Part shown: positions 14,678 to 38,814 of the stretch, piece by piece
How the letters are laid out: each line of letters begins with the position of its first letter
Numbering within the stretch: position 1 is the stretch's first letter
DNA from: Streptococcus cristatus
Lineage (GTDB): Bacteria > Bacillota > Bacilli > Lactobacillales > Streptococcaceae
Assembly (NCBI RefSeq): GCF_001578775.1
Contig: NZ_KQ969062.1
Location: forward strand, 585,410 to 649,409
Length of the DNA stretch: 64,000 bases
Direction of reading: 5' to 3'
The notes under the pieces: generated by a model
What the model was told of the DNA's origin: nothing
Databases searched by the model: none
The model's input: only the letters and a program-made list of their open reading frames with translations
Made by a program: the position numbers and the translations under genes

Positions 14678-15364
14678 ATGCACAAGATTTTACTGGTCGA
14701 GGATGATGCGGTCATCCGTCAAATGATCAAAAAAATGCTGGAGCAATGGGGCTATCAGGTTGTGGCGATTGAAGACTTCATGCAGGTTTTGACAACCTTT
14801 GTTAAGGAGGAGCCCCAGCTGGTGCTGATGGATATTGGTTTGCCTCTCTTTAACGGCTACCATTGGTGCCAGGAAATTCGGAAGATTTCGACGGTACCGA
14901 TTATGTTTCTGTCTTCGCGTGACCAGTCCATGGATATCGTCATGGCCATCAATATGGGCGCAGATGACTATGTGACCAAGCCTTTTGATAATAATGTCTT
15001 TTTGGCCAAGGTTCAAGGGCTGCTACGGCGTTCGTATGAGTTTGGGACGGATCAAAGTCTTTTGGAATATCAGGGTGTGATTTTAAATCTTAAATCCATG
15101 GATTTGGTCTATGAGGGCGAGATTGTGACGCTGACCAAGAATGAATTTCAGATTTTGCGGGTGCTCTTTGAGCATTCTGGCAGCATCGTGGCGCGTGATG
15201 ACTTGATGAAAGAGCTCTGGAACAGTGATTTCTTTATCGATGACAATACCTTGTCCGTCAATGTTGCCCGCCTGCGCAAGAAGCTGGAAGAGCACGGTCT
15301 GAAACATTTTATTGAGACGAAAAAAGGGATAGGATACGGTTTAACCAATGGACATGCAGGATAA
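14678..15364 (+). CDS. OmpR-family response regulator, BceR-like
   Basis: 228 residues. Receiver domain: acidic pocket VEDDAV at 7-12, phosphorylatable Asp in LVLMDIGLPLFNG at about 51, conserved Lys in KPFDN at about 101. C-terminal winged helix (LTKNEFQILRVLFEHSGSIV ... FIDDNTLSVNVARLRKKLE) of the OmpR type. It is followed with a 17-base overlap by an intramembrane-sensing kinase and lies upstream of two BceAB-like transporters, the standard arrangement for peptide-antibiotic sensing. TATAAT at 14642-14647 is a likely -10; I see no TNACA-N4-TGTAA box before this gene, so it may not be self-regulated. Confidence 0.92.
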   Translation: MHKILLVEDDAVIRQMIKKMLEQWGYQVVAIEDFMQVLTTFVKEEPQLVLMDIGLPLFNGYHWCQEIRKISTVPIMFLSSRDQSMDIVMAINMGADDYVTKPFDNNVFLAKVQGLLRRSYEFGTDQSLLEYQGVILNLKSMDLVYEGEIVTLTKNEFQILRVLFEHSGSIVARDDLMKELWNSDFFIDDNTLSVNVARLRKKLEEHGLKHFIETKKGIGYGLTNGHAG

Positions 15365-16328
15365 ATTTTTCTTTTTGAAGCATCATCTGTACTCCCGTCG
15401 CTTCATCTTGTTGCTCTTGCTGATTGTATTTTCAATTATGGGGATGTTTGCCTTTATTTTCGAGGATGGGCGCAGTCTGCTAGAGTATCAGCTGCTCTTA
15501 GCCTTTCTCCTTGCTAGCTTTTTCTTGGGAATGGATCTAGCTAGTGCCTATAAGGAATACCGTAACCAGCTCTTTTATGCCTCAGGTCGGCCTCAGACAG
15601 CCTTAGAGGTTCTCCTTTTTGAGAAACTGGCTCTCTTGGAAATGGACAAGAAGAACCGTGCGATTGAAGAGAGGGAGAAGCTAAATGACCTGATGGACTA
15701 TTATACGCTCTGGGCTCATCAGATCAAGACGCCTATTGCGGCTAGTTCATTGCTGGTCGGAGAGATTGAGGACAAGAAGGTCAAGAACCAGCTGGAGCAA
15801 GAACTTTTCAAGATCGAGTCCTATGTCAATATCGTTTTGCAGTATCTTCGCTTGGAGAGTTTCCACGAGGATTTGGTCTTGAAAAAGGAAAATGTTGAAG
15901 ATTTGGTCAAGGAGATTGTCAAGAAGTATGCGATTTTCTTTATCCAAAAGGGCTTGAGCCTCAATCTGCATGATCTAGACCGAACCATCATCACAGACAG
16001 AAAGTGGTTCGTTGTTATTTTGGAGCAAGTGTTGTCGAACAGTCTGAAATACACCAGTCAAGGCGGGATTGAAATTTATTTTCAGGAGGATACGCTTTAT
16101 ATCAAAGACAGCGGTCTGGGGATTCAGGATGCGGATTTGCTAAGGGTTTTCGAGCGAGGTTTTTCGGGCTATAATGGTCGTTTGACCCAGCAATCGTCTG
16201 GCTTGGGACTTTATCTGTCCAAGAAAATTGCAGATGAGCTGGGGCATCAGATCAGCATCGCTTCGCAGGTCGGTCAGGGAACAACTGTCATGATTAGTTT
16301 TTCAGAGAAGAAGATGATATTTGAATAA
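15348..16328 (+). CDS. Intramembrane-sensing histidine kinase, BceS-like
   Basis: 326 residues. Two membrane helices near the N-terminus (about 18-38 and 43-65) separated by only a few residues, so there is no extracellular sensor domain. H-box WAHQIKTPIAAS (phosphorylated His about 129), N-box EQVLSNSLKY, G1 DSGLGI, G2 SGLGLYLSKK. Kinases of this kind do not bind the drug; they read the activity of a partner BceAB transporter. Its gene overlaps the regulator gene by 17 bases. Which of the two BceAB-like modules it reads cannot be told from sequence. Confidence 0.92.
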   Translation: MDMQDKFFFLKHHLYSRRFILLLLLIVFSIMGMFAFIFEDGRSLLEYQLLLAFLLASFFLGMDLASAYKEYRNQLFYASGRPQTALEVLLFEKLALLEMDKKNRAIEEREKLNDLMDYYTLWAHQIKTPIAASSLLVGEIEDKKVKNQLEQELFKIESYVNIVLQYLRLESFHEDLVLKKENVEDLVKEIVKKYAIFFIQKGLSLNLHDLDRTIITDRKWFVVILEQVLSNSLKYTSQGGIEIYFQEDTLYIKDSGLGIQDADLLRVFERGFSGYNGRLTQQSSGLGLYLSKKIADELGHQISIASQVGQGTTVMISFSEKKMIFE

Positions 16329-16335: not shown

Positions 16336-16409
16336 TTACAAATTTGTAAGGTTGGCCAGTGAAATTGAAAGGTTAGGTTATGGTACCGACCTTTCTTTTT
16401 TTGTAAGAT
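16336..16409 (+). promoter_or_regulatory. BceR-type box and promoter before traX/bceAB-1
   Basis: TTACA-AATT-TGTAA at 16336-16349 fits the TNACA-N4-TGTAA box described for BceR-like regulators. TGAAAGGTTA follows at 16366, and a TAAGAT -10 candidate at 16404, 68 bases after the box start. The same order and spacing recur at 24514 and 24950. GAAAGGT...ACCTTTC plus a T-run at 16367-16402 could also form a weak terminator or attenuator behind the kinase gene. Confidence 0.7.
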
Positions 16410-16439
16410 AGATGTATAAAGAAGACAAGGAGATATGAA

Positions 16440-17198
16440 ATGAAAACAAGAGGATTCAATGCTTTCCAACTCAAGCTTTTCATGGCCTTTTTAATGGTTT
16501 TTGATCATATTGGTAAGATTCCAGGGCTTTTGCCGACAGGCTGGGACGGGATTTTCCACCTGCTGACCCGCTGTGTAGCTGCCTGGTTTGCCTTTAGCGC
16601 AGTAGAAGGCTTTCTGCATACGCGCAATCGCTTGGCTTACAATGCCCGCTTGTTTATCTGGGCGGCTATCATGCAGCTGGGCAATACCATCCTGACCATG
16701 CTCTTTCATAGCAAGGGGATTCATCTTGAGAATAATATCTTTCTCAGCTTAGCCTGTGGCGTTCTGGTGCTCAATCTTGTATTTGGTCTTTCCAAAAATA
16801 GTGAAAAGATTATGGATGAGAAGCGCTATTTGCGGATTGGAGCGGCAGCCTTAATTGGTTTGGCAGGAGTCTTTTTGACAGAAAGCGGCATGACCATTAT
16901 TCCTTTGATGCTGATTAGCTATATCTTCCGCAATCAGCCTGCTCTCAGAACTTTTTCTTACATGGTCTTGGCTTTTCTACTCTTCTGTCTGAGCATTGAA
17001 ATTTACCCAACCATGGGGGCCACCATTTCGATGATGCTCTACAATTCAGACTGGGCCTTTATTACCGTCTTGCCCTTCCTCCATCTCTACAATGGCGAGC
17101 GAGGCTATAATGGCAAGTGGGGCAAGTATTTCTTCTATATCTTTTACCCAGCCCATCTCTGGATCATCGCACTGATTGCATATCTAGTGCAGAGATAA
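16440..17198 (+). CDS. TraX family membrane protein
   Basis: 252 residues, largely hydrophobic with about eight membrane segments. The opening MKTRGFNAFQLKLFMAFLMV and DHIG, then RCVAAWFAFSAVEGF, are typical of the TraX family, named for F-pilin acetylation but widespread in streptococci with no conjugation genes. Related to acyltransferase-3-like membrane proteins. Its promoter carries the BceR-type box and the first bceAB pair follows 83 bases later, so it probably belongs to the same stress regulon, perhaps modifying an envelope component; that role is inference. Confidence 0.85.
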   Translation: MKTRGFNAFQLKLFMAFLMVFDHIGKIPGLLPTGWDGIFHLLTRCVAAWFAFSAVEGFLHTRNRLAYNARLFIWAAIMQLGNTILTMLFHSKGIHLENNIFLSLACGVLVLNLVFGLSKNSEKIMDEKRYLRIGAAALIGLAGVFLTESGMTIIPLMLISYIFRNQPALRTFSYMVLAFLLFCLSIEIYPTMGATISMMLYNSDWAFITVLPFLHLYNGERGYNGKWGKYFFYIFYPAHLWIIALIAYLVQR

Positions 17199-17281
17199 AA
17201 ATATTGGCATTTAAAAATTAGTAAAATATGGAAATAAAGCTGTTTCTGTATTAAAATGGAATTATAGAAAAGGAGATCATG

Positions 17282-18061
17282 ATGACCTTATTAGACGTAC
17301 AACATGTGAAAAAGATTTATAAAACTCGCTTTCAGGGTAGCCAAGTAGAGGCGTTGAAAGACATACACTTTACGGTAGAAAAAGGCGAATATGTCGCCAT
17401 TATGGGAGAATCAGGCTCCGGGAAGTCCACCCTGCTCAACATCCTAGCTATGCTGGACAAGCCGACCGAAGGGCGCGTCTTTCTCAACGGAACTGACACG
17501 GCAACTATTAAAAACAGTCAGGCTTCCAGCTTCCGCCGAGAAAAATTAGGCTTTGTCTTTCAAGATTTTAACTTGCTGGATACATTATCGGTTAAGGATA
17601 ATATCCTGCTGCCTTTGGTGCTCTCTCGTCGTCCTATTACCGAGATGATGCAAAAGCTGGTCACGACCTGCAACGAGCTGGGGATAAATAAACTCCAAGA
17701 GAAGTTCCCTTATGAAATTTCTGGTGGTCAGAAGCAGCGGGTGGCAGTAGCCCGCGCTATTATCACTGAGCCTGAGATTTTGCTGGCAGATGAGCCGACG
17801 GGAGCCTTGGATTCTAAGTCCTCGGCAGCTCTATTGGATGTCTTTGACGACATCAACGACCGCGGCCAAACCATTCTCATGGTAACCCACTCGACTTCGG
17901 CGGCTAGTCGGGCCAAGCGAGTGCTCTTTATAAAAGACGGAATTCTCTACAATCAAATCTTCCGCGGCAACAAGACCGAGCGGCAGATGTTCCAAGAGAT
18001 TTCCGATACTCTGACGGTCATGGCAAGTGAGGTGGGCAACTATGTTCAAACTAACGAGTAA
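17282..18061 (+). CDS. BceA-like ABC transporter ATPase (copy 1)
   Basis: 259 residues from the second of two adjacent ATGs (17279, 17282), which has the better distance to AAGGAG and matches the start of copy 2. MacB/LolD-type ATPase: Walker A GESGSGKST at about 40, signature ISGGQKQR, Walker B ILLADEPTGALD, H-loop VTHS. Protein is the same as copy 2 at 25156 except one substitution (KLVTTC versus KLVATC) and the last few residues, although the genes differ at many silent sites. The stop lies 20 bases inside the permease gene. Role: energy for a peptide-antibiotic resistance and sensing module in the membrane. Confidence 0.93.
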   Translation: MTLLDVQHVKKIYKTRFQGSQVEALKDIHFTVEKGEYVAIMGESGSGKSTLLNILAMLDKPTEGRVFLNGTDTATIKNSQASSFRREKLGFVFQDFNLLDTLSVKDNILLPLVLSRRPITEMMQKLVTTCNELGINKLQEKFPYEISGGQKQRVAVARAIITEPEILLADEPTGALDSKSSAALLDVFDDINDRGQTILMVTHSTSAASRAKRVLFIKDGILYNQIFRGNKTERQMFQEISDTLTVMASEVGNYVQTNE

Positions 18062-20042
18062 ACTGGCCTTATCAAATCTGGTTAAAAATCGCAGTTTGTA
18101 TTATCCATTTGCCTTGGCAACGGTACTGGCAACAGCGATTTTGTATAGTTTTGTCTCACTGGCTCACAGTCCAAATATGGAAACTTCTTATGGTGGTACA
18201 GCAGCTCGCATGACTTTGCAGTTTGGTATCCAAGTCATTCAGATTGCGGTGCTCATCCTTATCACCTATGCCAATAGCTTTGTCATGAAGAACCGTTCGC
18301 GGGAGCTCGGTGTTTATAGTGTGCTAGGGATGGAAAAGCGTCACTTGCTACTTATGACCTTCTTTGAGCTCTGTGTCTTTTATCTAGCTACAGTTGGTCT
18401 AGGTATCTTGTCTGGCCTAGCTTTGGACAAGATGCTCTACGCCGTTCTTTTGAAATTGATGGGAATGCCGGCCGTTCTTGCCTCGACCTTCCAATGGCAG
18501 AATGTTTGGGTGACCCTAGTCAGTCTGGGTGTCGCTTTTGCGGTGATTTTGTTGCTCAACTCTACCCGACTTCTACGCTATAGCTCTCTTAATCTAATGA
18601 AAGAAAAGAAAGCAGGCGAGAAGAAGGGACGCTTCCTTTTTCTGCAAACCTTGCTAGGGCTCCTGCTCATGAGTGTAGCTTATTATATGGCTTTGACCGT
18701 TACCAAACCTGTCGCCGCTATCGGCAATTTCTTTATAGCTGTGATCATGGTTATCCTAGCAACCTATCTGCTTTTTAATGCAGGCTCGATTACGCTACTG
18801 CAATTTCTCAAAAAGAGAAAAAGCTACTACTACAAAACGCAGAATTTCATTTCTGTTTCCAATCTCATCTCGCGGATGCGTAAAAATGCGGCAGGATTAG
18901 CTACTATCTCCATTCTATCTACCATGCTCCTAGTGACTCTGGTTGGTACAATCAATATCTATGTTGGAGGTCAGGATTATATTACTACCTTGCATCCAAA
19001 GGATTACAATGTTAGCGTCGTCTTACCAAAATCGACCGAGCAGAAGGAGGCTATGTTGGACAAGGTTCAGCAGGTCGCTCAGGACACAGGCCTGAAGAAG
19101 CCAAGCTATACTACCTATCTCTACCAATCAGCCTTCATCATGAAACTGGCTGGTAATGATGTGACGGTTCCAATGCAAAGCGAGCTGGATTCGGATCCAA
19201 GTATCTTGACTAAGTCTGCCGGCACGATTACAGTTATCAATCGTCAGGATTATGAAAAAATGACAGGGAAAAAGATAGACTTGGCAGATGATGAAACTCT
19301 TGTCTATGGAAAAAATGTTTCCTTAAATAAGGATCAGCCTCTCCGAGTAAATGGTAAAGACTGGAAGATTAAGCAGATTTTACCGTCGAATTTCACGCAT
19401 GGGGAAATCCCTAATCCAAACGACGTGGCCATGGAGCAGGGCATCTATATGGTGGTCAATGATAGTAAAGAAGTAGGACTAAATGTTGCACACTATTACT
19501 ACATTGGAGTTGCTTCAGAGACTAAGGGCAGTAAGAAATTTGTCGAGCAAGTCCAGCTGGGACTGCGGGACACTTTGGATCAGGAACAGGCCCAAGATGG
19601 CAGCTACGCAATGGCTAGTGATCGTCATAGCGCAGAAAAGAGCTATCAGGAACTCACAGGAACCCTCCTCTTCATCGGTGTCTTTCTTTCTATTATCTTC
19701 CTGTTGGGGGCTGTTTTGGTCATCTATTACAAACAGATTTCAGAAGGTTATGAAGACCGGGCTGGCTTTGTCATCCTGCAAAAAGTCGGTCTGGATGAGA
19801 AACAAACCAAGAGCACGATTCGCAAGCAGATTCTGACCGTCTTCTTCCTACCCCTCATCTTTGCTTTCTGCCATATTGCGGCAGCCTTTCACATGCTGCG
19901 TCTGATTGTGGCCTTGCTGGGCGTGACCAATGTGTCTCTGCTCATTCAAACAACGATCATAACATGTGGCATTTTCCTGCTGACCTATATCTTGGTCTTT
20001 CTTCTGACTTCCAGAAGCTATCGCAAGATTATCGCTCGTTAA
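18042..20042 (+). CDS. BceB-like permease (copy 1)
   Basis: 666 residues from the ATG at 18042. FtsX-type permease with about ten membrane segments and one large extracellular region between helices 7 and 8 (about residues 310-535), the arrangement of BceB/MbrB proteins that recognise cell-wall-targeting peptide antibiotics. The membrane parts are similar to copy 2 (LTSKLALSNL at the start, ISEGYEDR and IRKQIL near the end), while the extracellular domains differ strongly. This suggests different ligands served by nearly identical ATPases. Confidence 0.92.
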   Translation: MFKLTSKLALSNLVKNRSLYYPFALATVLATAILYSFVSLAHSPNMETSYGGTAARMTLQFGIQVIQIAVLILITYANSFVMKNRSRELGVYSVLGMEKRHLLLMTFFELCVFYLATVGLGILSGLALDKMLYAVLLKLMGMPAVLASTFQWQNVWVTLVSLGVAFAVILLLNSTRLLRYSSLNLMKEKKAGEKKGRFLFLQTLLGLLLMSVAYYMALTVTKPVAAIGNFFIAVIMVILATYLLFNAGSITLLQFLKKRKSYYYKTQNFISVSNLISRMRKNAAGLATISILSTMLLVTLVGTINIYVGGQDYITTLHPKDYNVSVVLPKSTEQKEAMLDKVQQVAQDTGLKKPSYTTYLYQSAFIMKLAGNDVTVPMQSELDSDPSILTKSAGTITVINRQDYEKMTGKKIDLADDETLVYGKNVSLNKDQPLRVNGKDWKIKQILPSNFTHGEIPNPNDVAMEQGIYMVVNDSKEVGLNVAHYYYIGVASETKGSKKFVEQVQLGLRDTLDQEQAQDGSYAMASDRHSAEKSYQELTGTLLFIGVFLSIIFLLGAVLVIYYKQISEGYEDRAGFVILQKVGLDEKQTKSTIRKQILTVFFLPLIFAFCHIAAAFHMLRLIVALLGVTNVSLLIQTTIITCGIFLLTYILVFLLTSRSYRKIIAR

Positions 20043-24097: not shown

Positions 24098-24445
24098 ATG
24101 ATTATAGTTTATGATTCAGTTACGGGTGTTGGGAAGCAATTTGCAGAATCGCTGGGCTATCCGACACAAACTATCAAGGAAAAGTTGGAGGAACCCTGCA
24201 TTCTCATCACGCGAAATGCTGGAGCTGGGAAAATTCCCTGGTCCACTAAGCGCTTTATTAAGAAACATTCAAGCTTGATTAAGGGTTTTGTCAATAATGG
24301 AGATTCGGTTAAGCATGGACGGACCTTCTGCGGGGCTACACCTTTGATTATCGAAAAATATGGGCTGCCGCATATCTGCGATATTGACCGAGGTGGCAAG
24401 GAAGAAGACGTCAAACTTGTACAGGAATACCTAGCTAAACTCTAA
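24098..24445 (+). CDS. nrdI: NrdI-like flavoprotein (class Ib ribonucleotide reductase maturation)
   Basis: 115 residues. Flavodoxin-like NrdI pattern: IVYDSVTGVGKQFAESLG at the start (FMN phosphate loop), ILITRNAGAGKIPWSTKRF, and NNGDSVKHGRTFCGAT for the flavin ring loop. It is shorter than most NrdI (about 130-160). NrdI supplies oxidant to build the Mn(III)2-tyrosyl radical in NrdF. No nrdE, nrdF or nrdH is adjacent; stand-alone nrdI genes occur in streptococci. It lies 9 bases after the TetR-linked membrane protein gene and is followed by a terminator. A second nrdI elsewhere is possible, in which case this could have a different partner. Confidence 0.82.
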   Translation: MIIVYDSVTGVGKQFAESLGYPTQTIKEKLEEPCILITRNAGAGKIPWSTKRFIKKHSSLIKGFVNNGDSVKHGRTFCGATPLIIEKYGLPHICDIDRGGKEEDVKLVQEYLAKL

Positions 24446-24481
24446 GAGCGGATTGTTTATATGATAAATATATGGGAAAAG

Positions 24482-24509
24482 GATGGGTGATAATCACTCA
24501 TCTTTTTTT
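24482..24509 (+). terminator. Terminator after nrdI
   Basis: GATGGGTGA / TCACTCATC (one G-T pair) with a 3-base loop and a seven-T run. Confidence 0.82.
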
Positions 24510-24513
24510 AAAA

Positions 24514-24586
24514 TGACAAAAATGTAAGTTTAAATCCTAAAATGAAAGGTTATTCGATGGTAGCGGGACGGGGAATTTTATATCAT
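24514..24586 (+). promoter_or_regulatory. BceR-type box and promoter before the 43-residue peptide gene
   Basis: TGACA-AAAA-TGTAA at 24514-24527, TGAAAGGTTA at 24543, TATCAT -10 candidate at 24581. Distance from box start to -10 is 67, exactly as at 24950. Confidence 0.75.
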
Positions 24587-24641
24587 ATAGGTGTAAGGAA
24601 AAACAAATCACAAATAATATCCAAATAAAAGGAGGCCCACT

Positions 24642-24773
24642 ATGAAAACAAATCTCTTCAACCATAAACAAAAAACACAAATGGCGCAAAAGATTTCCAA
24701 AGAAGAAATCGAAAAAACTAGACTGGGCTGTGCATCAAGCCAGTATTATTTCTGGCTACAGTATAGTCATTAA
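24642..24773 (+). CDS. 43-residue peptide in the BceR-type regulon
   Basis: ATG at 24642 behind a strong AAAGGAGG. The product begins MKTNLFNHKQKTQMAQKISK, continues with an acidic/basic helix (KEEIEKTR), then LGC and an aromatic tail ASSQYYFWLQYSH. One cysteine, no membrane helix. The two-part make-up, a charged N-terminal half and a short aromatic C-terminal half, resembles a leader and core, so a secreted or modified peptide is possible; a small intracellular or membrane-surface regulator is equally open. It has its own BceR-type promoter and its own terminator and lies directly before the second bceAB. No homologue recognised. Confidence 0.6.
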   Translation: MKTNLFNHKQKTQMAQKISKEEIEKTRLGCASSQYYFWLQYSH

Positions 24774-24790
24774 GAAGCAGATGCAGTGAA

Positions 24791-24838
24791 GGGGCTGGGA
24801 TAGAAGTAAGATGCTTAGTTCTGTCCCACCACCTTTTT
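24791..24838 (+). terminator. Terminator after the peptide gene
   Basis: TGGGATAGAA and TTCTGTCCCA (one G-T) with a 13-base loop, then CCACC and TTTTT. The GGGCTGGGA...TCCCA wording resembles repeat-type hairpins common in this genus. Confidence 0.65.
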
Positions 24839-24921
24839 GCTCAAATAGAACTGAAAGTTTAGGGAGGCAAACTGGGAAAGTAACCCAAATCATACAGCCC
24901 TTTCCCTCTAATGAACATCAG

Positions 24922-24943
24922 GTTTTTCCATAACTGGAAAAAC
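24922..24943. terminator. Hairpin upstream of the second bceAB promoter
   Basis: GTTTTTCCA / TGGAAAAAC with a TAAC loop. The A/T tracts make it a weak bidirectional terminator; it insulates the promoter at 24950. Confidence 0.5.
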
Positions 24944-24949
24944 GCTAAG

Positions 24950-25022
24950 TGACAAAAATGTAAGATTAGCGTCCAAAATGAAAGATTAGCTTATGGAAAC
25001 TTATCGGGCTTTTCGGTATGAT
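24950..25022 (+). promoter_or_regulatory. BceR-type box and promoter before bceAB copy 2
   Basis: TGACA-AAAA-TGTAA at 24950-24963, TGAAAGATTA at 24979, TATGAT -10 at 25017, 67 bases after the box start. Leader to the bceA start is about 125 bases. Confidence 0.75.
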
Positions 25023-25155
25023 AATAGTATCGTTTTTAGTTCGCTTTCAGTAGGAGGCAGTGGCTCAGGTAATCTTAGAGCAGGACTAGCTAATAAAGCA
25101 TTGAAAGCTAAGTTAAATAACCATTTTACACATAAATAAAAAAAGAGGTTCAAGT

Positions 25156-25923
25156 ATGACATTATTAGACGTACAACACGTGAAAAAAATTTATAAAACC
25201 CGCTTTCAGGGCAGCCAAGTAGAGGCCTTGAAAGACATTCATTTTACGGTAGAAAAAGGTGAATATGTCGCCATTATGGGGGAATCAGGTTCTGGGAAAT
25301 CCACCCTGCTCAACATCCTAGCCATGCTGGACAAGCCGACTGAGGGCCGCGTCTTTCTCAACGGAACTGACACAGCAACCATCAAAAACAGCCAGGCTTC
25401 CAGCTTCCGCCGAGAAAAATTAGGCTTTGTCTTTCAGGATTTCAATCTGTTAGATACTCTGTCGGTCAAGGATAATATTCTACTGCCTTTGGTCCTCTCT
25501 CGCCGTCCCATTACCGAGATGATGCAAAAGCTGGTTGCCACCTGCAATGAGTTGGGGATTAACAAGCTACAAGAGAAGTTTCCTTATGAGATTTCCGGTG
25601 GTCAGAAGCAGCGGGTGGCAGTTGCTCGCGCTATCATCACTGAGCCTGAGATTTTACTGGCGGATGAGCCGACAGGAGCCTTGGATTCCAAGTCTTCGGC
25701 TGCTCTCCTAGATGTCTTTGACGATATCAACGACCGCGGCCAAACCATTCTCATGGTAACTCACTCGACTTCAGCGGCTAGCCGCGCCAAGCGGGTGCTC
25801 TTTATCAAGGACGGGATTCTTTACAATCAAATCTTCCGTGGCAACAAGACCGAGCGGCAGATGTTCCAAGAGATTTCCGATACTCTGACAGTTATGGCAA
25901 GTGAGGTGGAAGCTCATGCTTAG
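25156..25923 (+). CDS. BceA-like ABC transporter ATPase (copy 2)
   Basis: 255 residues. Same motifs as copy 1 (Walker A GESGSGKST, signature ISGGQKQR, Walker B ILLADEPTGALD). The two proteins differ at one internal residue and in the last few residues, whereas the genes differ at about 6 of the first 72 bases, all silent. That combination speaks for strong constraint on the protein rather than a very recent duplication. Overlaps its permease gene by 8 bases. Its promoter carries the BceR-type box. Confidence 0.93.
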   Translation: MTLLDVQHVKKIYKTRFQGSQVEALKDIHFTVEKGEYVAIMGESGSGKSTLLNILAMLDKPTEGRVFLNGTDTATIKNSQASSFRREKLGFVFQDFNLLDTLSVKDNILLPLVLSRRPITEMMQKLVATCNELGINKLQEKFPYEISGGQKQRVAVARAIITEPEILLADEPTGALDSKSSAALLDVFDDINDRGQTILMVTHSTSAASRAKRVLFIKDGILYNQIFRGNKTERQMFQEISDTLTVMASEVEAHA

Positions 25924-27904
25924 ATTAACTAGTAAGCTTGCGCTTTCTAACTTAATCAAAAATCGTAAGCTTTATTATCCTTTCGCTCTGGCGACTTGCC
26001 TGGCTATCGCCATCTCCTACATCTTTTTCTCTCTGACCTTTAATCCTAATTTAGTAAAAATGACGGGGGCAAGCGCCGTTTCTATGGTGCTATCTTTTGG
26101 GATGGTGATTGTCAGCATCACGACCAGCATTATCGTCTTTTATGCTAATAGCTTTGTTTTCAAGAATCGCTCCAAAGAGCTGGGTCTCTACAGTGTGCTA
26201 GGACTAAATAAATTCCACCTCTTTGTCATGGTGGTAATTGAATTACTGGTATTTGGTCTGGTCACTCTTATCCTTGGACTAGGGATTGGGCTCTTATTTG
26301 ACCAGTTGATCTATGCTCTCTTGCTAAAAATCATGGCGATAAAGGTCGTCTTGGTGTCAACTTTTCAGCCTGCTGTAGTTATCGCGGTTGCAGTTTTCTA
26401 TGCCTTTGTCTTTTTCTGCTTGATGATCAGCAATGGTCTGCGCTTGAGAAAGCTTGATGCATTGCAATTGGTCAAAGAAAAGAATAGCGGAGAAAAGAAA
26501 AGTCGCTTTTTATTCCTGCAGACACTACTTGGGCTTGCAGCCTTGGCTTATGGTTACTTTCTTGCACTAGGAGTGACCAATCCTCTATCAGCAATTTTTA
26601 CATTCTTTGTCGCGGTACTTTTTGTGATTCTGGGGACCTACCTGCTCTTTAATGCTGGAATTACGGTTTTTCTGAAATTTTTGAAAAAGAAGAAGTCCTA
26701 TTATTACCAGCCCAATAACATGATTTCCGTTTCCAACCTGATTTTCCGCATGAAGAAAAATGCGGTGGGTCTAGCGACAATTGCTATCCTATCAACCATG
26801 GTTTTGGTGACCTTATCTGGCGGAGCTAACATCTATGCCGGTGGTGACTACATGCAAAAGGCTATGTTTCCTCATGATTTTAGCATTCAAGGAAAAGGAA
26901 CCACAGGTGAGCAGATGGACCAAGTGCTGACAGAGTTTGTGAATGAGCAGCAGTTACCAGTCACAAAGAAAGGTGTCTATCCATACTATACGATGGGAGT
27001 GACAAGTCGTGCTGGCAACCAGCTTGATATCAATGCTGCCGCTCAAAAATTTGTCACACCGAAAACGTATATTCTGGCGGTTTCAGAAGTGGATTATCAG
27101 AATATGACAGGGAAAACTCTGAATCTTGGGGATGACGAGGTGGCACTCTATCAGCAAGGTGTGAAGTTGGATTCCAAGCAAGACTTGCAGCTGGCTGGTC
27201 AGACCTTTAAAATCAAGGAAGAACTCAAAGAAGACTTTATCTTTGGCAATTTGCCAGACCAGATGAACATGATCGTCCCAGAGAAAATCTACATGGTTCT
27301 TAAAAATCCCGACCAAATCTTCTCTGCAATGACGGATAAATATGCTGTAAACCTTAATTATTATGGTTGGCTTGATACAAAGCTGTCAACGGAAGAACAG
27401 CGTAATCTGAGGGATGCTTACCAAGAAAAATTGAATCAGTTTAATCAGACCTTGCCTGAGAATCAAGCGGTCTATGGTTCGGTAACAGCTTTTGATAAGC
27501 AAGAAATCAAAGGCATGCTGGGTGGCATGTTCTTCATCGGTATCTTCCTATCAATCGTCTTTATGCTGGGAACCATCCTAATCATCTACTACAAGCAGAT
27601 TTCAGAAGGGTACGAGGATCGGGATCGCTTTGTGATTCTACAAAAGGTCGGTCTGGATGAGAAGCAAATCAGACAAACCATTCGGAAACAGATCTTGATT
27701 GTTTTCTTCCTGCCGCTGGCCTTTGCCTTTATCCATCTGACCTTTGCCTATCATATGCTGAGCTTGATCTTGTCTGCTCTCGGTGTTCTTAACTCAGCTC
27801 TCATGCTGGCTGTGACACTGGGTGTCTGTGCGATCTTCTTTATCAGCTATGTGATCGTCTTCATGATTACTTCTCGCAGTTATCGTAAAATTGTCTCTAT
27901 GTAA
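25916..27904 (+). CDS. BceB-like permease (copy 2)
   Basis: 662 residues from the ATG at 25916. FtsX-type permease with about ten helices and one large extracellular domain between helices 7 and 8. The intracellular and membrane parts follow copy 1 (ISEGYEDRDRF, IRKQIL), but the extracellular domain is largely different in sequence. Together with the near-identical ATPase this makes a second detox or sensing module, probably for a different peptide antibiotic. Confidence 0.92.
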   Translation: MLRLTSKLALSNLIKNRKLYYPFALATCLAIAISYIFFSLTFNPNLVKMTGASAVSMVLSFGMVIVSITTSIIVFYANSFVFKNRSKELGLYSVLGLNKFHLFVMVVIELLVFGLVTLILGLGIGLLFDQLIYALLLKIMAIKVVLVSTFQPAVVIAVAVFYAFVFFCLMISNGLRLRKLDALQLVKEKNSGEKKSRFLFLQTLLGLAALAYGYFLALGVTNPLSAIFTFFVAVLFVILGTYLLFNAGITVFLKFLKKKKSYYYQPNNMISVSNLIFRMKKNAVGLATIAILSTMVLVTLSGGANIYAGGDYMQKAMFPHDFSIQGKGTTGEQMDQVLTEFVNEQQLPVTKKGVYPYYTMGVTSRAGNQLDINAAAQKFVTPKTYILAVSEVDYQNMTGKTLNLGDDEVALYQQGVKLDSKQDLQLAGQTFKIKEELKEDFIFGNLPDQMNMIVPEKIYMVLKNPDQIFSAMTDKYAVNLNYYGWLDTKLSTEEQRNLRDAYQEKLNQFNQTLPENQAVYGSVTAFDKQEIKGMLGGMFFIGIFLSIVFMLGTILIIYYKQISEGYEDRDRFVILQKVGLDEKQIRQTIRKQILIVFFLPLAFAFIHLTFAYHMLSLILSALGVLNSALMLAVTLGVCAIFFISYVIVFMITSRSYRKIVSM

Positions 27905-29460: not shown

Positions 29461-31010
29461 TCAGAACGTAGACAAACGTCATTTTTGGCGTTTGTCTTTT
29501 TGTATTTTCAAAAATATTTTGTCTCATCATCTGCTATTCCATCCAAAAATCGGATTTAGAACAAAATAAAAAGGCTTGCCCACCCTCATTTTTACTAGTT
29601 TTTTGAGATTCAAACACGCCAAAGTAAGCCCAATCTTATCTTCTATCTTGGACTTGCCTTTCTCTCTTGTATAACGGAGATTGTGGTATTCTTTGGCTGT
29701 CCCAAAGAGCCGATCAATAGTTTCTTTGCGTTTCTTATAGAGCTCCTTCATCCCTTTTTGGTGGCGAATCTCTTCACAAAATTCAAGCGCGTCCTTTCAT
29801 ACATGTCTTGTGATGACTTTCTGTTGATTCTGGCTTCGAGTACAAACGGATAATAGGGGACAGGAAACACATACTTTTGGATGACTCTTATACTCACGGT
29901 AGCCTTCTCGAGTCGTCGTGCAATAGGCCAATACTTGGTTCTCTGGACAGAGGTAACAGTCATAGAAGGCATCATAAACAAAATCACCGGGTCTTAAGTT
30001 CCCCTTTACTCCCTTGGGGCGGGTATAAGGGAAGACGGGGATAATGTTTCGCTGTAATAAATAATGGGCAATAGCTGGGGTCTTATAGCCTGAGTCCGCA
30101 ATAATGTAGCGTGGGGAGAAAGCTTCTAACTTTGAAAAAAGGGCAGGGAAAGCCTGACTATCATGAACATTTCCTGCTTCAACACTATAAGCTAAGGCCC
30201 AGCCATGCTTATCACAAGCTACTTGGGCAGAATAGGCAAATACTTCCTTGTGTTCCCCCTTGTGGAACCAACCACTCTCAGGATCTGTCCTTGAGATTTT
30301 CTTTTCTTTAGCCTCGCTTTCTTTTGCGGGCTTTAAGGACTTTTTTTCGTGTTTTCTCCTATCTAAATCAATCTCAACTGCCAATTGCTCACTCATAAAT
30401 TTAGCTTGTTGGGCAACCATTTCCTTATGATACTTGTGACGGTTAGCTGCCGCTTTGATATGGGTACCATCCACAAATATTTCAGAAGGATTAATCAAAC
30501 CAGCACATAAAGCTTGATGGAGTACTTGTGAAAATATCTCAGCAATCAGTGCTTTATCTTGAAAGCGACGACTGTAATTCTTTCCATATGTAGTAAAATG
30601 GGGCACCTTGTCATCCAAGCTTAGCCCAAGAAACCAACGATAAGCGACGTTTACTTCAATGTCTTTAATCGTTTGGCGCATGGAGCGAATGCCATAAAAA
30701 CATTGAATTAAAGGGATTTTGACTAACATGACAGGATCGAGACTAGGACGACCCTGATCGGGGCTATAGGTATCTTCAACTAAGTCATAGATAAAGTCAA
30801 AATCAACCTCTGATTCCACTTGGCGAAGAAAGTGATCCTCTGGGACCAATTCGTCGATCGTATAGAAGCCATATTGGCAGCGATGATAATCTGGTTTTTC
30901 TTTGTGAAACATAGAGAATACCTCACAATTCTTCTTACCTTTATTATACGACTTTACAAAAAGAAAAGCCCTTAGAAACTTGAGTTCTAAGGACTTTGTC
31001 TTCAATCTGA
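29461..31010 (-). mobile_element. IS1182-family insertion sequence (about 1.55 kb)
   Basis: Bounded by the two 20-base terminator copies. Ends form imperfect inverted repeats: the left end reads TCAGAACGTAGACAAACG and the right end, read inward on the other strand, TCAGATTGAAGACAAAG. The left end also holds a hairpin (GACAAACG ... CGTTTGTC, then T5) that may stop outside transcription. The only gene is an IS1182-type transposase on the minus strand. Confidence 0.82.
29527..30912 (-). pseudogene. IS1182-family transposase with one in-frame stop
   Basis: Start ATG at 30912 gives MFHKEKPDYHRCQYGFYTID. The DDE-type features include a first Asp in IFVDGTHIKAAANRHK and YIIADSGYKTPAI. After 371 codons the frame meets TGA at 29797-29799 (context RHV-stop-KDALEF), then continues in the same frame for 90 more codons (EIRHQKGMKELYKKRKETID) to a natural end at 29527. 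One base change, probably TGG to TGA, explains it; no frameshift is needed. The catalytic Glu region of DDE enzymes is expected at HQKGMKELYKKRKETIDRLF-like positions, beyond the stop, so the product is probably inactive. Confidence 0.85.
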
Positions 31011-31030: not shown

Positions 31031-31200
31031 TTTTTTGAATATGATCCGAATCTGCTATGAGGACATAAGAGCAGTAATATGATAATTTTGCAATTTCTTC
31101 TCTGTCAATATTCATCTATATTTTCTAGAAATCAGTAATAAAATATGGTAGAATGTGGATAGTGACAATGATATAAAAACGGAAGGAATTGTCAGATTTT

Positions 31201-31626
31201 ATGAAGTCAAATCCTCAACTGGCCAATTTTTATATGGAAAAATATCAGACAAGTATAAAGAAAGGCAACAATCTGCAAGCTCAACGTCAAGAGCTACTTG
31301 CTAAGATTGAGCGCTTAGAGCAGGCAAATCGTGAGTTAGACCAACAAATTGAAAATATCAATTCACTACTGAGCAATGATTTTTCTCGACTGGAGAAGGT
31401 AGATGGGTCTCGTTTTAGAGGAAGTGTAAAGGGTAGATTTTTAGAGAAATGCACCCATGCTAAACAAAATCTAATGACCTACCAGTCTAAACAAACTTCA
31501 AATAAAGGTGAGATTAGTAGTAAAATTAAGGAACTTCAAGATGAAGCAGATAGTTTACTAAGAAAGAGTTCGATGGCCTTTACAGAAGCAGATAGTTACT
31601 ACTCCATAGCTCTCAGCTATTCGTAG
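31201..31626 (+). CDS. LXG-locus helical partner protein, YwqH/DUF5082-like
   Basis: 141 residues from the ATG at 31201; a TTG at 31189 sits too close to the AAGGAA to be preferred but is possible. Almost wholly helical with a strong coiled coil at about 25-60 (QAQRQELLAKIERLEQANRE). First of the small genes before the LXG toxin, where B. subtilis has YwqH-type (DUF5082) proteins. Such small helical proteins bind the LXG helical domain and are needed for type VII export. Family assignment rests on position and coiled-coil character more than on motifs. Confidence 0.65.
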   Translation: MKSNPQLANFYMEKYQTSIKKGNNLQAQRQELLAKIERLEQANRELDQQIENINSLLSNDFSRLEKVDGSRFRGSVKGRFLEKCTHAKQNLMTYQSKQTSNKGEISSKIKELQDEADSLLRKSSMAFTEADSYYSIALSYS

Positions 31627-31637
31627 GAGGAAATTAA

Positions 31638-31922
31638 ATGTCAGAAACAAAAGTTGATTTGTCAGTATGGGAAAGTACTACTAAATCTGCTGAAACTTAT
31701 GTATCCTCTATTTTTGATATGACTCCGCTGGAATTTAACAACTCAGACTTAACCCCTTTTGTGAATTTTAATGACTATATTACGCTATTAAACAGTTCAT
31801 TAAGTAGTTTGCGGACTTTTACCAGTACGGATGTGGTAAATATGAACCGTGCAGCACAGAATAAAGTTGCTGATGATCATACGGAAGCATCCAATATTCA
31901 AAGTTCGAGGGGGAAGAAATGA
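31638..31922 (+). CDS. Small WXG100-like partner protein (TIGR04197/DUF5344-like)
   Basis: 94 residues behind a strong GGAGGAAAT site. Sequence features: DLSVWESTTKSAETYVSSIF near the start and a helical second half. This is the size, position and general pattern of the TIGR04197/DUF3130-type partner proteins that pair with LXG toxins in type VIIb systems. Its stop overlaps the next start in ATGA, so translation is coupled. Confidence 0.7.
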   Translation: MSETKVDLSVWESTTKSAETYVSSIFDMTPLEFNNSDLTPFVNFNDYITLLNSSLSSLRTFTSTDVVNMNRAAQNKVADDHTEASNIQSSRGKK

Positions 31923-32578
31923 ACGAATTGCAGTTGTATATATTCGAGCAGGGATTAGAGGAGCTGAGTCTGTGTGAAGCAGAACACCAACATTTACGCA
32001 CGATTGGCATGACCTTAGCGGGTCATCCCAAAGTGTTGCGCTCCTGCTATATTGCTTTTCTGAAAGGAGAGTCCAAATGCAGGTACAAGCCATTGATTGG
32101 GGCTCCGCTTCTATTCAGTTTTCATTATCATCAGGAAGAAGTTGAGATTGAGCGGATTGAGACCGCCTATCGTGTATCCTTTTCTGTGTTTATTCGCTTT
32201 TTTGCTTTAGTTGATTTGGCCTTCAGTAAGATCTACCCATTGGGAACGATTGTGGAGCTGGATAAGGAGCTGCTTCCGACCGAGTTGGTTGAGCAGTTTG
32301 CTTCGGAGGAGATGGATTTTTATGCAGTTCTATCTGGTCGTCGACTGCAATTGGATTCTCAGTCATACATTGATTACGCAGGACATGTCTATCCTTACGG
32401 TATGCGTTTTGATACATTGCCTCTCTACATCAGTAATCTCTTTATCAAGCGGGTGATTTCCGAAGGTTACAGTGATGCAAAAGACAGCCAGCATTGCGAT
32501 AAGGAGTTGAGAGAGTTCTATTTCAAGGGATCTGTCTACTCTACCATTTATGATGTGGAGGTTGCCAATGAAGATTGA
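31919..32578 (+). CDS. DUF4176-containing LXG accessory protein
   Basis: 219 residues. The C-terminal half contains YPLGTIVELDKELL, DFYAVLSGRR and YIDYAGHVYPYGM, followed by an FIKRVISEGYSD segment, which follows the DUF4176 pattern (PIGS.V.L, Y.G..YP.G, D..I..V...GY.d). DUF4176 proteins are encoded beside many LXG toxins and are thought to act as chaperones or adaptors for their export. The N-terminal 100 residues are an added domain I do not recognise. Starts by ATGA overlap with the upstream gene and overlaps the toxin gene by 11 bases. Confidence 0.75.
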   Translation: MNELQLYIFEQGLEELSLCEAEHQHLRTIGMTLAGHPKVLRSCYIAFLKGESKCRYKPLIGAPLLFSFHYHQEEVEIERIETAYRVSFSVFIRFFALVDLAFSKIYPLGTIVELDKELLPTELVEQFASEEMDFYAVLSGRRLQLDSQSYIDYAGHVYPYGMRFDTLPLYISNLFIKRVISEGYSDAKDSQHCDKELREFYFKGSVYSTIYDVEVANED

Positions 32579-34094
32579 TATGAATGAAGTGCAGAGTAAC
32601 AAGACCAAATTGGCTACTTCAATCAAGCTGATGCGGGGGCAGGTTGAATTAGCCCGCTCAAAATTGAATCAGATTGTAGAGAGTCAGGCACTGCAGGGAG
32701 ATGTAAAGACAGCTATTGATGCTAAAGTTAAGAACCACCAGATGCCTATGATGACGCATTATCTGACAGCTTTGGAGATTATGTCAGCTGACTACGAGGC
32801 ATTGATTAGCACCTTTCAGTCGGAGGTGGGAGAGAGTGCTCAGGATGCAGTGATTGATACGGACTATCTGGCAGAGTTGGGCACTATCTTTCCAGGGATT
32901 AGTCAGGGCTTGGCCACTATTCGGCAGAGTCTATCTGGAACTTATTCAAGGATATCAGACTTAATCACACTGGATGCGTCTTCAACCTCGGATATATCCA
33001 GTAATCTGAGTGCGGCTAAGCAAATTTTGACGGATACAACGGATAAGATGTCAGCTTTCAATGATTTGCCTAGACCAGAGACTTTTTCCAGTATTATCTC
33101 GCAACAGAATGCCCAACTTGGAGTACTGAGATCTGTTCAGGGGCCGCAGTATGCGACTGAAAAGGCCAGGGCACTTTATACGAATCAAAACTTTGCTTTA
33201 TCTGTAACGCAATACCAGCTACTTAGTCACCAGTCCAATTATAGAGTCATGCTTCAGCAGAAACTAGCTCGTTCCTTGGTAGATTCCTATTACAGTAAGC
33301 GTCCTGTTCAGGCTTCCATGCAACCATATAAGCTGGATGAGAAGACCAAAGACTTGATTGAGAAAGCTAACAAAGGCGATCTTCAGGCTATTAGTGAGCT
33401 TTCTAAGAGTTATCGCTATGATAAGACGATGGAGAGGACCGTGCCTTATCGTTCTCAAGCTGAATTAGCTCGGTTAAATCAAGAAGTTTGGGATAGGACC
33501 CTCACAACTGGCCAACATATTTTAGGCGAAATTTTTGGAATCTATGACGTTTACCGCTTGATTACAGGGATTGATCCAGTTACGGGTGAGGAGACCAGTC
33601 GCTTAGAAGCAGGTTTATGGCTCGCCTTAGATATATTACCCTTCCTCAAAGCTGGCAAAGCGGGTAAGTTAGGGAAAATCGCAAAGACAGCTGACAAGGT
33701 AGATGATGTAGCAGATGCAGTCAAGGCGGTGGATAAGACTACGGATACTGCAAAGGCGGTAGACAAGGCGTCAGATATAGTAAAAATAGTTGATGTAGAT
33801 AGAATTAATGATACTGCTAATATAATTAGAAACAGCGGAGGGGAAACTATAGCAGGCCATGCTTTACAAAAGCACGCTGGCAGAAATCCGCAGATTTGGG
33901 GCGCAGTAAAAGGGAATTCAGAGTCAATAAATAGGCAAGCCATGGAACATATTAATGATATACTTAAATCACCAGGGGACTTCATGATTCATACAACTGA
34001 TAGAGGTATTAGTTTTCTTGAGAAAAAATTACCTGATGGACGGGGGATGAGATTAAATATGGATGGTTCTTTCAAGGGATTTATTGATAAATAG
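32568..34094 (+). CDS. LXG polymorphic toxin, type VIIb secretion substrate
   Basis: 508 residues from the ATG at 32568. Residues 1 to about 230 form the long helical LXG domain (KIDMNEVQSNKTKLATSIKL at the start). About 315-365 is the pre-toxin PT-TG region (LITGIDPVTGEETSRLEAG, then FLKAGKAGKLGK). An alanine/lysine/aspartate-rich linker (KTADKVDDVADAVKAVDKTT) leads to the toxin tip, about 425-508, with GHALQKHAGRNPQIWG and a final MRLNMDGSFKGFIDK. That tip resembles BECR-fold RNase tips as in the YobL/YxiD group; this is inference. The whole operon appears intact, although the secretion machinery lies outside the window. Confidence 0.88.
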   Translation: MKIDMNEVQSNKTKLATSIKLMRGQVELARSKLNQIVESQALQGDVKTAIDAKVKNHQMPMMTHYLTALEIMSADYEALISTFQSEVGESAQDAVIDTDYLAELGTIFPGISQGLATIRQSLSGTYSRISDLITLDASSTSDISSNLSAAKQILTDTTDKMSAFNDLPRPETFSSIISQQNAQLGVLRSVQGPQYATEKARALYTNQNFALSVTQYQLLSHQSNYRVMLQQKLARSLVDSYYSKRPVQASMQPYKLDEKTKDLIEKANKGDLQAISELSKSYRYDKTMERTVPYRSQAELARLNQEVWDRTLTTGQHILGEIFGIYDVYRLITGIDPVTGEETSRLEAGLWLALDILPFLKAGKAGKLGKIAKTADKVDDVADAVKAVDKTTDTAKAVDKASDIVKIVDVDRINDTANIIRNSGGETIAGHALQKHAGRNPQIWGAVKGNSESINRQAMEHINDILKSPGDFMIHTTDRGISFLEKKLPDGRGMRLNMDGSFKGFIDK

Positions 34095-34104
34095 GAATGA
34101 AATT

Positions 34105-34491
34105 ATGGTAAACATTGAATTGAGAATAGCGGTAGTAGATTTAGCCATTATAGATAGATTATTGAAATTGTTAGATATTAGTCAACAGATAATTAATTCT
34201 CATTTTTATTATAATAAACAGGATATAAACTATTCAAATGATATAAAATGGGGGCAGTATTTTTCTAGTCCATCTACAGGATATTTACATGTAGGACAAA
34301 TATTTTTAGGAAAGTTTTTTAAGGATGCTATGATTATTATTTCAGGAAATGAAAGTATAGTTGATTTTATTATTGAGTTCCAAGTTGAATATATGACAGA
34401 TGAGGATATAAATAATATAAAAAAATTTATCCTAAAATATAATCCAGATATTTCAGATGAAGATATTGAAGTTATCTGTGAAGAGTATTAA
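34105..34491 (+). CDS. Probable immunity protein of the LXG toxin
   Basis: 128 residues from the ATG at 34105, 10 bases after the toxin stop. Acidic (DISDEDIEVICEEY at the end), no signal peptide, so cytoplasmic, as needed to neutralise a nuclease-type tip. Very AT-rich compared with the toxin's LXG part. Identified by position; no named Imm family recognised. Confidence 0.65.
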   Translation: MVNIELRIAVVDLAIIDRLLKLLDISQQIINSHFYYNKQDINYSNDIKWGQYFSSPSTGYLHVGQIFLGKFFKDAMIIISGNESIVDFIIEFQVEYMTDEDINNIKKFILKYNPDISDEDIEVICEEY

Positions 34492-34519
34492 GTTTTTATC
34501 AGTTATTAAAAGTTAACTA

Positions 34520-34743
34520 AAACAATAGATTGGATACCTACTTTTTTATGGTTGAAAGCAGATAAATATGCTTTTGTATTTGACAATTATAATTCTTTCT
34601 TAGCGGATGATCTTGTTTCGAAGGAGCTATTTTTAGAAATTCTGAAAGAAGAAGTGTTGCCCTGGTGGGAAAATGATGCTAAAAAATATGTAGTAGTAGG
34701 AGTTTTAAAGAGTTTTCAAGTCTATATAATAAAGAATGATTAG
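34520..34743 (+). pseudogene. Truncated barstar-family immunity gene
   Basis: From WLKADKYAFVFDNYNSFLAD to the stop it is nearly identical to the intact barstar-like gene at 39678-40067; upstream, a degraded stretch still matches the ATAGATTGG region of that gene, but the first half is gone. A TTG at 34552 is the only start in the surviving frame. The downstream sequence is also duplicated at 40068, so the whole block was copied. Confidence 0.8.
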
Positions 34744-34840
34744 AAGTAGAGTCGAAACTAATTATATAGAGATTATCAAAGATATATCAAACTTCAGTTG
34801 GTTATATCTTTTGAAGGAATATTGATAGAAACTGAACTGC

Positions 34841-34878
34841 ACCCCAAAAGTTAGATAGAAAGTCTAATTCTTTGGGGT
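34841..34878. repeat. Hairpin repeat (ACCCCAAAAGTTAGA family), copy 2
   Basis: ACCCCAAA ... TTTGGGGT with inner GTTAGA ... TCTAA. An almost identical copy is at 40165 and a variant at 44583. It is followed here by ATGAAAAGATATTTTG, as at 40211. It looks like the end or leader of a lost insertion sequence. Confidence 0.6.
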
Positions 34879-34914
34879 GTTTTGCTATGAAAAGATATTT
34901 TGCCTCTCACTGAA

Positions 34915-35219
34915 CTCCATCAGATGGACAAGCTGCCGCATCCAGTCGCTATCATCTCTATGGGGCAAGCAAGGCAAGCACAGACACAACAGGGAATCCC
35001 TTTGCCTATAATGGCGAAGCCCGCGACGATACTGGACTTGACTACTTACGAGCAAGGTATTATGATAGTCAGGGAGGTACTTTCTTAACCGAGGATAGCT
35101 ACCCAGGTGAGGCGACGGATCCTCTCAGTCAGAACCGCTACAGCTATGTGCAGAATAACCCTGTCAACTATACAGACCCAAGTGGGCATAGAATGATTGG
35201 GTCGGCGGTGCAGAGTTAG
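34915..35219 (+). pseudogene. RHS core fragment 1
   Basis: In frame this reads DGQAAASSRYHLYGASKAST, then GEARDDTGLDYLRARYYD, DSYPGEATDPLSQNRYSYV, and NPVNYTDPSGHRM: the highly conserved C-terminal RHS core ending in D-P-x-G, after which variable toxin tips begin. It lacks its N-terminal repeats and a start, and stops at TAG 35217 shortly after the core because the attached linker is in another frame. Confidence 0.85.
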
Positions 35220-35692
35220 CTTTTGATATTGCAAGTTATTTCTATCCTATAGCTAAGGCTGGCAAATTAAGGAAACTTGAAAAAGCACTCGATACAGTAG
35301 ACGCAGTCAATGATGCATCAAAAGTTGCGAAGGCAGCTGATAAAGCTAATGATGCTTCGAAAGCTGCAAGAGTGGTAGACAAGGCGTCCGATGCTGGTAA
35401 GCTTTTTAATCCTCCTAAATTAGATAAATTATCTCCAAAAGAGATAGTTGACCTAAATATACAGGAGCTAAAAGGAAGACTGCCAGAAGGCTGGACATTC
35501 CACGAAAATAATGGACGTGTTCATATTAAGGAGAATGGGAAAATGAGAGTCCGTATTGATCCACCTGATAATGTTGGTACAGATTATACTCATATGCACA
35601 TTTATGATAAAAATGGGAAACCGTTAGATATTCATGGGAATAATGTTGATGTAAAAAGCCCTGCGGGACATATTCCTTGGGATAAATGGTAA
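35192..35692 (+). pseudogene. Orphan toxin tip A behind a pre-toxin linker
   Basis: Open frame without a proper start (GTG at 35372 only). It opens with NDWVGGAELAFDIASYFYP, the second half of a PT-TG pre-toxin region, then FYPIAKAGKLRKLEKAL and a DAVNDASK/KAADKA linker, then a tip of about 100 residues: LSPKEIVDLNIQELKGRLPE, VHIKENGKMRVRIDPPD, HMHIYDKNGKPLD and AGHIPWDKW. The tip pairs with a homologous tip at 37992-38372. The histidines in H-M-H-I and A-G-H-I are kept in both. The RHS core upstream is fused out of frame. No catalytic class assigned. Confidence 0.7.
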
Positions 35693-35702
35693 GGAGAGAG
35701 TT

Positions 35703-36131: not shown

Positions 36132-36207
36132 GTAAAGTGTTGAATTTAGATGATTGGAAAGTATAAATCACTTTCACAAATACAATTTGTGACTTAGTTC
36201 AATTTCT

Positions 36208-36238
36208 AACTAGGGGAAATTTTCCCCTAGTTTATTTT
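36208..36238 (+). terminator. Terminator closing cassette A
   Basis: AACTAGGGGAAA / TTTCCCCTAGTTT with a short loop and T-rich tail, before the RHS fragment. Confidence 0.75.
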
Positions 36239-36269
36239 ATACTAGCCTCACAGTAGACAAGCAGTATAA

Positions 36270-37635: not shown

Positions 37636-37636
37636 A

Positions 37637-37954: not shown

Positions 37955-37991
37955 CCCGATTAAGGTTTATTGGTTAAAGATAGTGTTTTAA

Positions 37992-38794: not shown

Positions 38795-38814
38795 ACGAGA
38801 TAGTGCATTATTAA

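Follow-up and report, generated by a model that had tools for sequence, protein, structure and literature searches.

A small gene beside bceAB in Streptococcus is probably an unrecognised helper of BceAB, a pump that shields the cell wall against antibiotics

The window, a stretch of 64,000 nucleotides from Streptococcus cristatus, carries the genes of a BceAB/BceRS module with two copies of the transporter. Modules of the BceAB type protect Gram-positive bacteria from bacitracin, nisin and related drugs. Before the second transporter copy lies a 43-codon open reading frame with the translation MKTNLFNHKQKTQMAQKISKEEIEKTRLGCASSQYYFWLQYSH, which is the subject of this study. The features of the locus are as follows.

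14678-15364, + strand: bceR, response regulator (Pfam Response_reg, Trans_reg_C)
15348-16328, + strand: bceS, histidine kinase (Pfam HATPase_c)
16336-20042, + strand: BceR box, TraX-family gene and first transporter copy bceAB1 (box search, Pfam)
16440-17198, + strand: the TraX-family gene, with its own BceR box
17279-20042, + strand: bceAB1
24098-24445: nrdI-like gene, upstream neighbour of the small gene (Pfam)
24514-24528, + strand: BceR-type box TGACAAAAATGTAAG in the promoter of the small gene (read from the sequence)
24540-24549, + strand: second half-site AAATGAAAGG of this promoter (read from the sequence)
24581-24586, + strand: -10-like TATCAT of the small gene (read from the sequence; layout as in the second promoter)
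24627-24635, + strand: ribosome-binding site AAAAGGAGG (read from the sequence)
24642-24773, + strand: gene for a Bce-associated small protein of 43 residues, ATG to TAA (conservation, synteny, pN/pS, structure model)
24791-24838, + strand: intrinsic terminator of the small gene, a hairpin with a U-run (folding, z -5.5)
24950-25022, + strand: second BceR box and promoter-like site (TATGAT at 25017-25022) before bceA2 (read from the sequence)
25156-25923, + strand: bceA2, ABC ATPase (Pfam ABC_tran)
25916-27904, + strand: bceB2, FtsX-type permease (Pfam FtsX; start codon chosen by eye)

A preliminary description of the frame had proposed a real gene with a BceR-type promoter, a ribosome site and a terminator, and these signals are indeed found at 24514-24549, 24627-24635 and 24791-24838. 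The stretch holding the hairpin folds at -32.3 kcal/mol (z -5.5), and none of 200 shuffles was equally stable; a simple scanner listed neither this terminator nor the small gene's own promoter. No structured RNA above the Rfam gathering threshold was found at 24400-25200, no peptide gene was found before bceAB1 of the window, and a profile of the small protein gave nothing under E = 0.96 in the rest of the window among the matches listed. We considered a 48-residue frame before bceA2 (24993-25139) as a further peptide and rejected it, since its ATG lies within the promoter and indels in related loci break the frame. By eye, a repeat element of about 150 nt is apparently inserted within the terminator of the small gene in six related loci (L002, L004, L031, L032, L035 and L042); this element, which in the relatives lies between the small gene and the second BceR box, is absent from the window. 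Farther downstream, the region 31189-45705 appears by eye, from the list of open reading frames only, to hold LXG-/Rhs-like polymorphic-toxin fragments and many small downstream frames, and a transposase-like gene on the minus strand (29797-31005, also by eye) adjoins it.

We searched for relatives of the small protein by a single-sequence search and then by two profiles. The single-sequence search gave matches in 55 of 147 genomes at E <= 1, mostly weak rows; the agmatine-deiminase-like matches in it (frames of 365 residues) were discarded as chance similarity on a KEEIE stretch. The first profile found relatives in 130 of 284 Streptococcus genomes at E <= 0.01 and the fuller profile, which includes the par type, in 156 of the 284 at E <= 0.001. 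Roughly one half of the Streptococcus species covered by the search carry the gene. When the profile was run against 345 genomes sampled across the order (79 genera), matches at E <= 0.01 were confined to Streptococcus, and plasmids gave no match to the small protein at this threshold either. Matches outside the genus in 14 of 18 genomes (E 0.006-0.099) were rejected: 12 of these 14 loci, when rescored, have no bceA beside the match, and the remaining two (L051, L056) fell below the rescoring threshold. The relatives fall into types for which we coined the names san, mit, par and lyf.

Conservation of the frame in relatives had been named in advance as the test by which the gene could be refuted, and the frame is conserved, not broken. 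For the type of the window pS is 0.616, pN 0.076 and pN/pS 0.12 (20 distinct coding sequences), these and the following ratios pooling non-independent pairs. Conservation in this type is highest towards the C-terminus: over the last 27 codons 64% of synonymous and 1.8% of non-synonymous sites differ (pN/pS 0.03). The mitis type gives a pN/pS of 0.20 (40 distinct sequences of 36 codons). Small groups are looser, with 0.48 for the par type (9 coding sequences) and 0.50 for one group of three, and among the large types that of the window is the most strongly constrained. The frame at 24642-24773 is therefore a selected protein-coding gene, with relatives in the genus and strong purifying selection. 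The real small gene with a BceR-type promoter beside bceAB that the preliminary description proposed is supported. A chance or decaying frame is virtually out of the question, although the frame is short and is degenerate in a few second copies (L068, L069, L205): conservation refutes it, all three types represented by 18 or more distinct coding sequences having a pN/pS of 0.03-0.26.

The neighbourhood of the gene was compared in 119 unique contexts. These are loci fetched by the peptide searches and drawn from part of the 156 genomes; many of the mitis-group contexts are near-copies, a genome with two flank lengths may count twice, and start-less frames (L068, L069) and matches under 20 bits were dropped before counting. 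Loci of the par type (ending in DLEKTEFGLQVLQQTQEFFLIY), which was first met upstream of bceA when loci of the three genomes with a close bceA but no match, and of genomes with a more distant bceA, were read, were also fetched through a bceA search, so that adjacency there is partly by construction; the profile later recovered the par-type matches at the same places. An RBS-like motif precedes the frame in 112 of the 119 contexts. The start of bceA lies at most 600 nt downstream of the small gene in 118 contexts, and in the 119th a run of N follows the gene and then the end of BceA and a full BceB. Thus the linkage is as constant as for an accessory gene of the Bce module, with 119 of 119 contexts at bceAB and co-occurrence in 150 of the 153 genomes with a close bceA (E <= 1e-140), one of the 150 being G339, whose frame has no start. 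Only six other genomes bear the peptide. In four of these (G008, G028, G199, G238) bceA is cut short, in G157 bceA adjoins the peptide (L094) though it is not in the bceA sample, and the sixth (G242) is not among the fetched loci. The gene heads the operon in named records of S. pneumoniae, S. mitis, S. oralis and S. infantis, and in two pneumococcal records (L147, L173) a mitis-type peptide precedes bceA, which bceB follows.

Some loci do without the gene. Three genomes with a close bceA (G209, G291, G298) show no such frame in the fetched loci, and none was seen upstream of the more distant streptococcal bceA genes examined, where L127 is masked and frames were printed only when bearing an RBS-like motif. 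Three copies (L068, L069, L205) have a frame without a usable start. It follows that the module works without the small protein. Two loci fetched after the contexts had been counted show a further variant before the first bceA copy: in L206 (G161) it has a start and ends in LYLGF, and in L205 (G053) a frame of the same type has no Met start.

A strict BceR box lies upstream of the small gene in 114 of the 119 contexts, every time with the second half-site. The pattern occurs 246 times on both strands of 2.27 Mb of locus DNA, which is enriched for bce loci, and not once in 1.07 Mb of mononucleotide-shuffled DNA. Of the five other contexts, L104 has one mismatch, L014 a partial box and L065 is masked by N, while none was seen in L015 and none within 220 nt in L067. 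Judged by its promoter, the small gene would thus be a member of the BceR regulon. Two arrangements can be distinguished. In 92 of the 119 contexts the peptide's stop codon lies 10-57 nt before bceA (13-15 nt in 87 of the 119), with a strict box upstream of the peptide in 87 of these 92, and the operon starts with the peptide gene. A wider gap of 138-535 nt is seen in 26 contexts, among them the window; each of these has a strict box before the peptide and a second box between the peptide and bceA, so that co-regulation has been kept after the genes were uncoupled. The type of the window is mostly found in this split arrangement. Hence the monocistronic gene of the preliminary description is correct for the window and does not hold for most relatives, in which the gene is coupled to bceA.

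BceR boxes were also seen before other genes. In L192, around position 1500 (C1:1353872 of its own genome), a full box accompanies the gene of a 242-residue membrane protein, judged by eye to be similar to the window's TraX-family gene; the BceR-box regulon may regularly include TraX-type proteins. In L191, at 1500-1600 (C1:830766 of its own genome), a perfect box with second half-site and TATGATAAT is found beside the 3' end of a convergent gene that by eye looks like one for a glutathione reductase; no open reading frame is evident downstream, and an antisense or small RNA is possible there.

The members of the family have 36-43 residues. In an alignment of 26 representatives the start is basic and variable, the core reads roughly [ED]-[ILV]-[ED]-[KRW]-x-x-[LFIM]-G-x(4)-Q, and the sequence closes with an aromatic residue or His; M1 and the Gly are the sole invariant positions. 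AlphaFold predicts a flexible basic start of low confidence and a helix at residues 20-41 (block pLDDT 95, 95, 85), with a mean pLDDT of 79.5 and a pTM of 0.43 for the whole model. We found no hydrophobic segment that could serve as membrane anchor or signal in eight representatives, the highest mean Kyte-Doolittle value over 19 residues being 0.43. An amphipathic helix lying on the membrane was rejected as well, as its moment is no better than that of shuffles. For the 26 members no Pfam or NCBIfam model matched above the cut-off (best Pfam E 0.029). PHROGs matches, of unknown function, were obtained for 3 of the 26 members with a best E of 0.0015, and the best PDB match has E 0.093; all of these are too weak to use. 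Judged by these comparisons, the small protein belongs to no family in the libraries searched.

Several genomes have two bceAB copies in which both BceA proteins are 93-100% identical to BceA2 of the window. In the window itself, bceA1 (17279-18061) and bceA2 (25156-25923) share 90% of their nucleotides and 99% of their residues, whereas BceB1 and BceB2 have 47% of residues in common. This near-identity beside divergent permeases would suggest gene conversion confined to bceA. A BceB tree was built from 59 rows, with partial loci, duplicates and two of every three mitis rows omitted. On it the subtypes of the peptide group by clade: the five labels need 10 changes against a mean of 32.6 for shuffled labels, near-copies in the tree also making labels cluster. 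One row (L153) is labelled as having none although it has a peptide, a variant missed by the pattern. The par type occupies a single clade with 100/100 support. Of the five rows with the type ending in LYxxF, four fall into the BceB1 clade; the remaining row has a degenerate frame. Rows on the BceB1 side thus bear this type (four rows, one without a start) or no peptide, and rows on the BceB2 side bear the window, mitis or par type, or none. There are two exceptions. L070 (G069) has the same window-type peptide at both copies, the BceB1-side one included, and in L069 (G339) an LYxxF-type frame with lost start (5249-5435, minus strand) precedes a transporter of the BceB2 clade, which looks like the outcome of recombination between two bceAB copies by way of bceA; G339 gave one bceA match. 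Since the subtypes track the BceB clades while the BceA copies are nearly identical, the pattern points to BceB rather than BceA as the likelier partner; linked inheritance explains the matching of subtypes too.

Could the frame be a leader peptide, so that ribosomes translating it or stalling on it would govern the transcription or translation of bceA in cis? Its place 13-15 nt before bceA in the majority of the contexts would suit such a role, as would the high conservation of the C-terminus in the type of the window and the terminator close behind the stop codon in the window. A loose scan shows some hairpin of terminator-like form between the peptide gene and bceA in 22 of the 26 split contexts, but none in the other four, and from lineage to lineage these hairpins change in sequence as well as in strength (-3.3 to -25.7 kcal/mol). 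Moreover, terminator and promoter separate the frame from bceA in the window, and the type of the window is the most constrained of the large types. Boxes and hairpins of the split loci thus give no indication of a conserved attenuator or of bceA being expressed from the transcript of a leader. The separate box of bceA, present in all 26 contexts with a spacing above 100 nt, speaks against a leader acting in cis and for a protein acting in trans; persistence of the gene after uncoupling, unexpected for the former and expected for a protein needed with the transporter, argues in the same direction. We therefore consider a leader peptide unlikely. We regard as very unlikely a secreted or modified peptide (bacteriocin or pheromone) handled by BceAB. 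The product is short and cationic and is encoded beside a transporter, and ISKEEIEKTRLG loosely resembles a double-glycine leader. In precursors of this kind Gly-Gly (or GA/GS) ends the leader and the core is variable. Here the residue preceding the Gly is L, F, I or M, and in the type of the window the tail hardly varies; there is no hydrophobic stretch, and among ten window proteins scanned, a part of the neighbours, no modification enzyme was found. The precursor cut at LGC that the preliminary description had considered is not supported: besides the conserved C-terminal part and the lack of a hydrophobic stretch that could be a signal, the Cys is not conserved, being I, Y, R or L elsewhere, and the predicted helix runs through the proposed site.

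Alternatively, the product might be a stress protein under shared regulation whose target is the envelope, or something else, rather than BceAB itself. In the 26 split contexts the gene has only the BceR-type promoter in common with bceA, and other genes of the genome, such as those of TraX-type proteins, have full BceR boxes as well. This reading is possible but rather improbable, as the gene is never away from bceAB in the 119 contexts and is carried by 150 of the 153 genomes with a close bceA and otherwise by just six. Among the roles proposed beforehand, a small regulator of the transporter or kinase fits best, with a presumptive partner. We thus favour, with about an even chance of being right, a small basic protein without recognisable export signal that is a third, accessory product of the streptococcal BceAB/BceRS module.

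Accessory small proteins of Bce modules are known as a kind. The available portions of the reports describe VraH of Staphylococcus aureus as a small protein of the membrane, with its gene downstream of vraDE, and as an accessory of VraDE (PMC10846014); like the product studied here it is a small third product with a Bce-type transporter, which it is said to modulate (PMC10846014, PMC7438565). In contrast, the streptococcal small protein has no VraH-like transmembrane segment and is encoded upstream of bceA; no Pfam or NCBIfam match above the cut-off links the two, and these libraries may hold no VraH model. YsaD of Lactococcus lactis is described, again in the portion available, as a secreted protein of 119 residues with a signal sequence, whose gene opens the ysaDCB operon; without YsaD the promoter responded differently and resistance was nearly the same, and it appears to modulate signal relay (PMC7438565). 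The streptococcal gene mostly heads its operon too, but its product differs from YsaD and YxeA of Bacillus subtilis (TIGR01655) in having 36-43 residues and no hydrophobic stretch, and the 26 members gave no NCBIfam family at E <= 1 in a library that may lack the TIGR01655 model. As far as these sources go, VraH and YsaD may by analogy be regarded as precedents.

The pneumococcal bceAB (spr0812-0813), which works with TCS01, is the same operon as that of L147 and L173, with the mitis-type peptide before bceA. In the portions of the papers available, this operon is described as bceA and bceB (PMC9020739, PMC11034029), TCS01 responds via BceAB to drugs with undecaprenyl pyrophosphate or lipid II as target and switches on bceAB (PMC9020739), S. 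pneumoniae is said to have no VraH homologue (PMC10846014), and in S. agalactiae BceAB is required for activation of BceRS (PMC11502775). We found no mention of the small gene in the accessible text of the literature (e.g. PMC7438565, PMC9020739, PMC11034029, PMC9426450, PMC11701578; likewise PMC3395615, PMC10659304, PMC10846014, PMC12484072, PMC11502775). The accessible main text on ribosome profiling of strain D39 mentions neither bceA nor SPD_0804; its supplementary list of open reading frames may hold the pneumococcal frame without a function. Thus, as far as the accessible literature and the library searches show, the family, its place before bceA and the absence of membrane or secretion signals are new.

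We suggest that an accessory product could act in the following steps. Antibiotics which bind lipid II or undecaprenyl pyrophosphate would activate BceAB-BceS, and BceR would then induce the peptide along with the transporter. The conserved C-terminal helix (mostly E-I-E-K-x-x-L-G-x(4)-Q with its aromatic or His end) might dock on the cytoplasmic side of its own BceB or, alternatively, from inside on BceAB and BceS in complex, the basic N-terminus then lying close to the membrane. Once docked, the small protein could tune signalling or transport, for example as feedback. It would be helpful but dispensable. Both the partner and the direction of the effect are inferred.

How the state of the transporter is relayed to the kinase in Bce modules is still being worked out. 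Somewhat more tentatively than the accessory role itself, we propose that the Bce modules of streptococci, pneumococcus included, have an overlooked dedicated subunit, a cytoplasmic helical protein of about 40 residues which is matched to its BceB paralogue and sets the strength of the signal from BceAB to BceS. A third gene at the head of the operon would be left out of two-gene work such as the bceA-bceB deletion and the expression plasmid described in the available portion of one study (PMC9020739). The small gene is probably an unrecognised helper of the BceAB pump and would offer a directly testable handle on the tuning of the signal.
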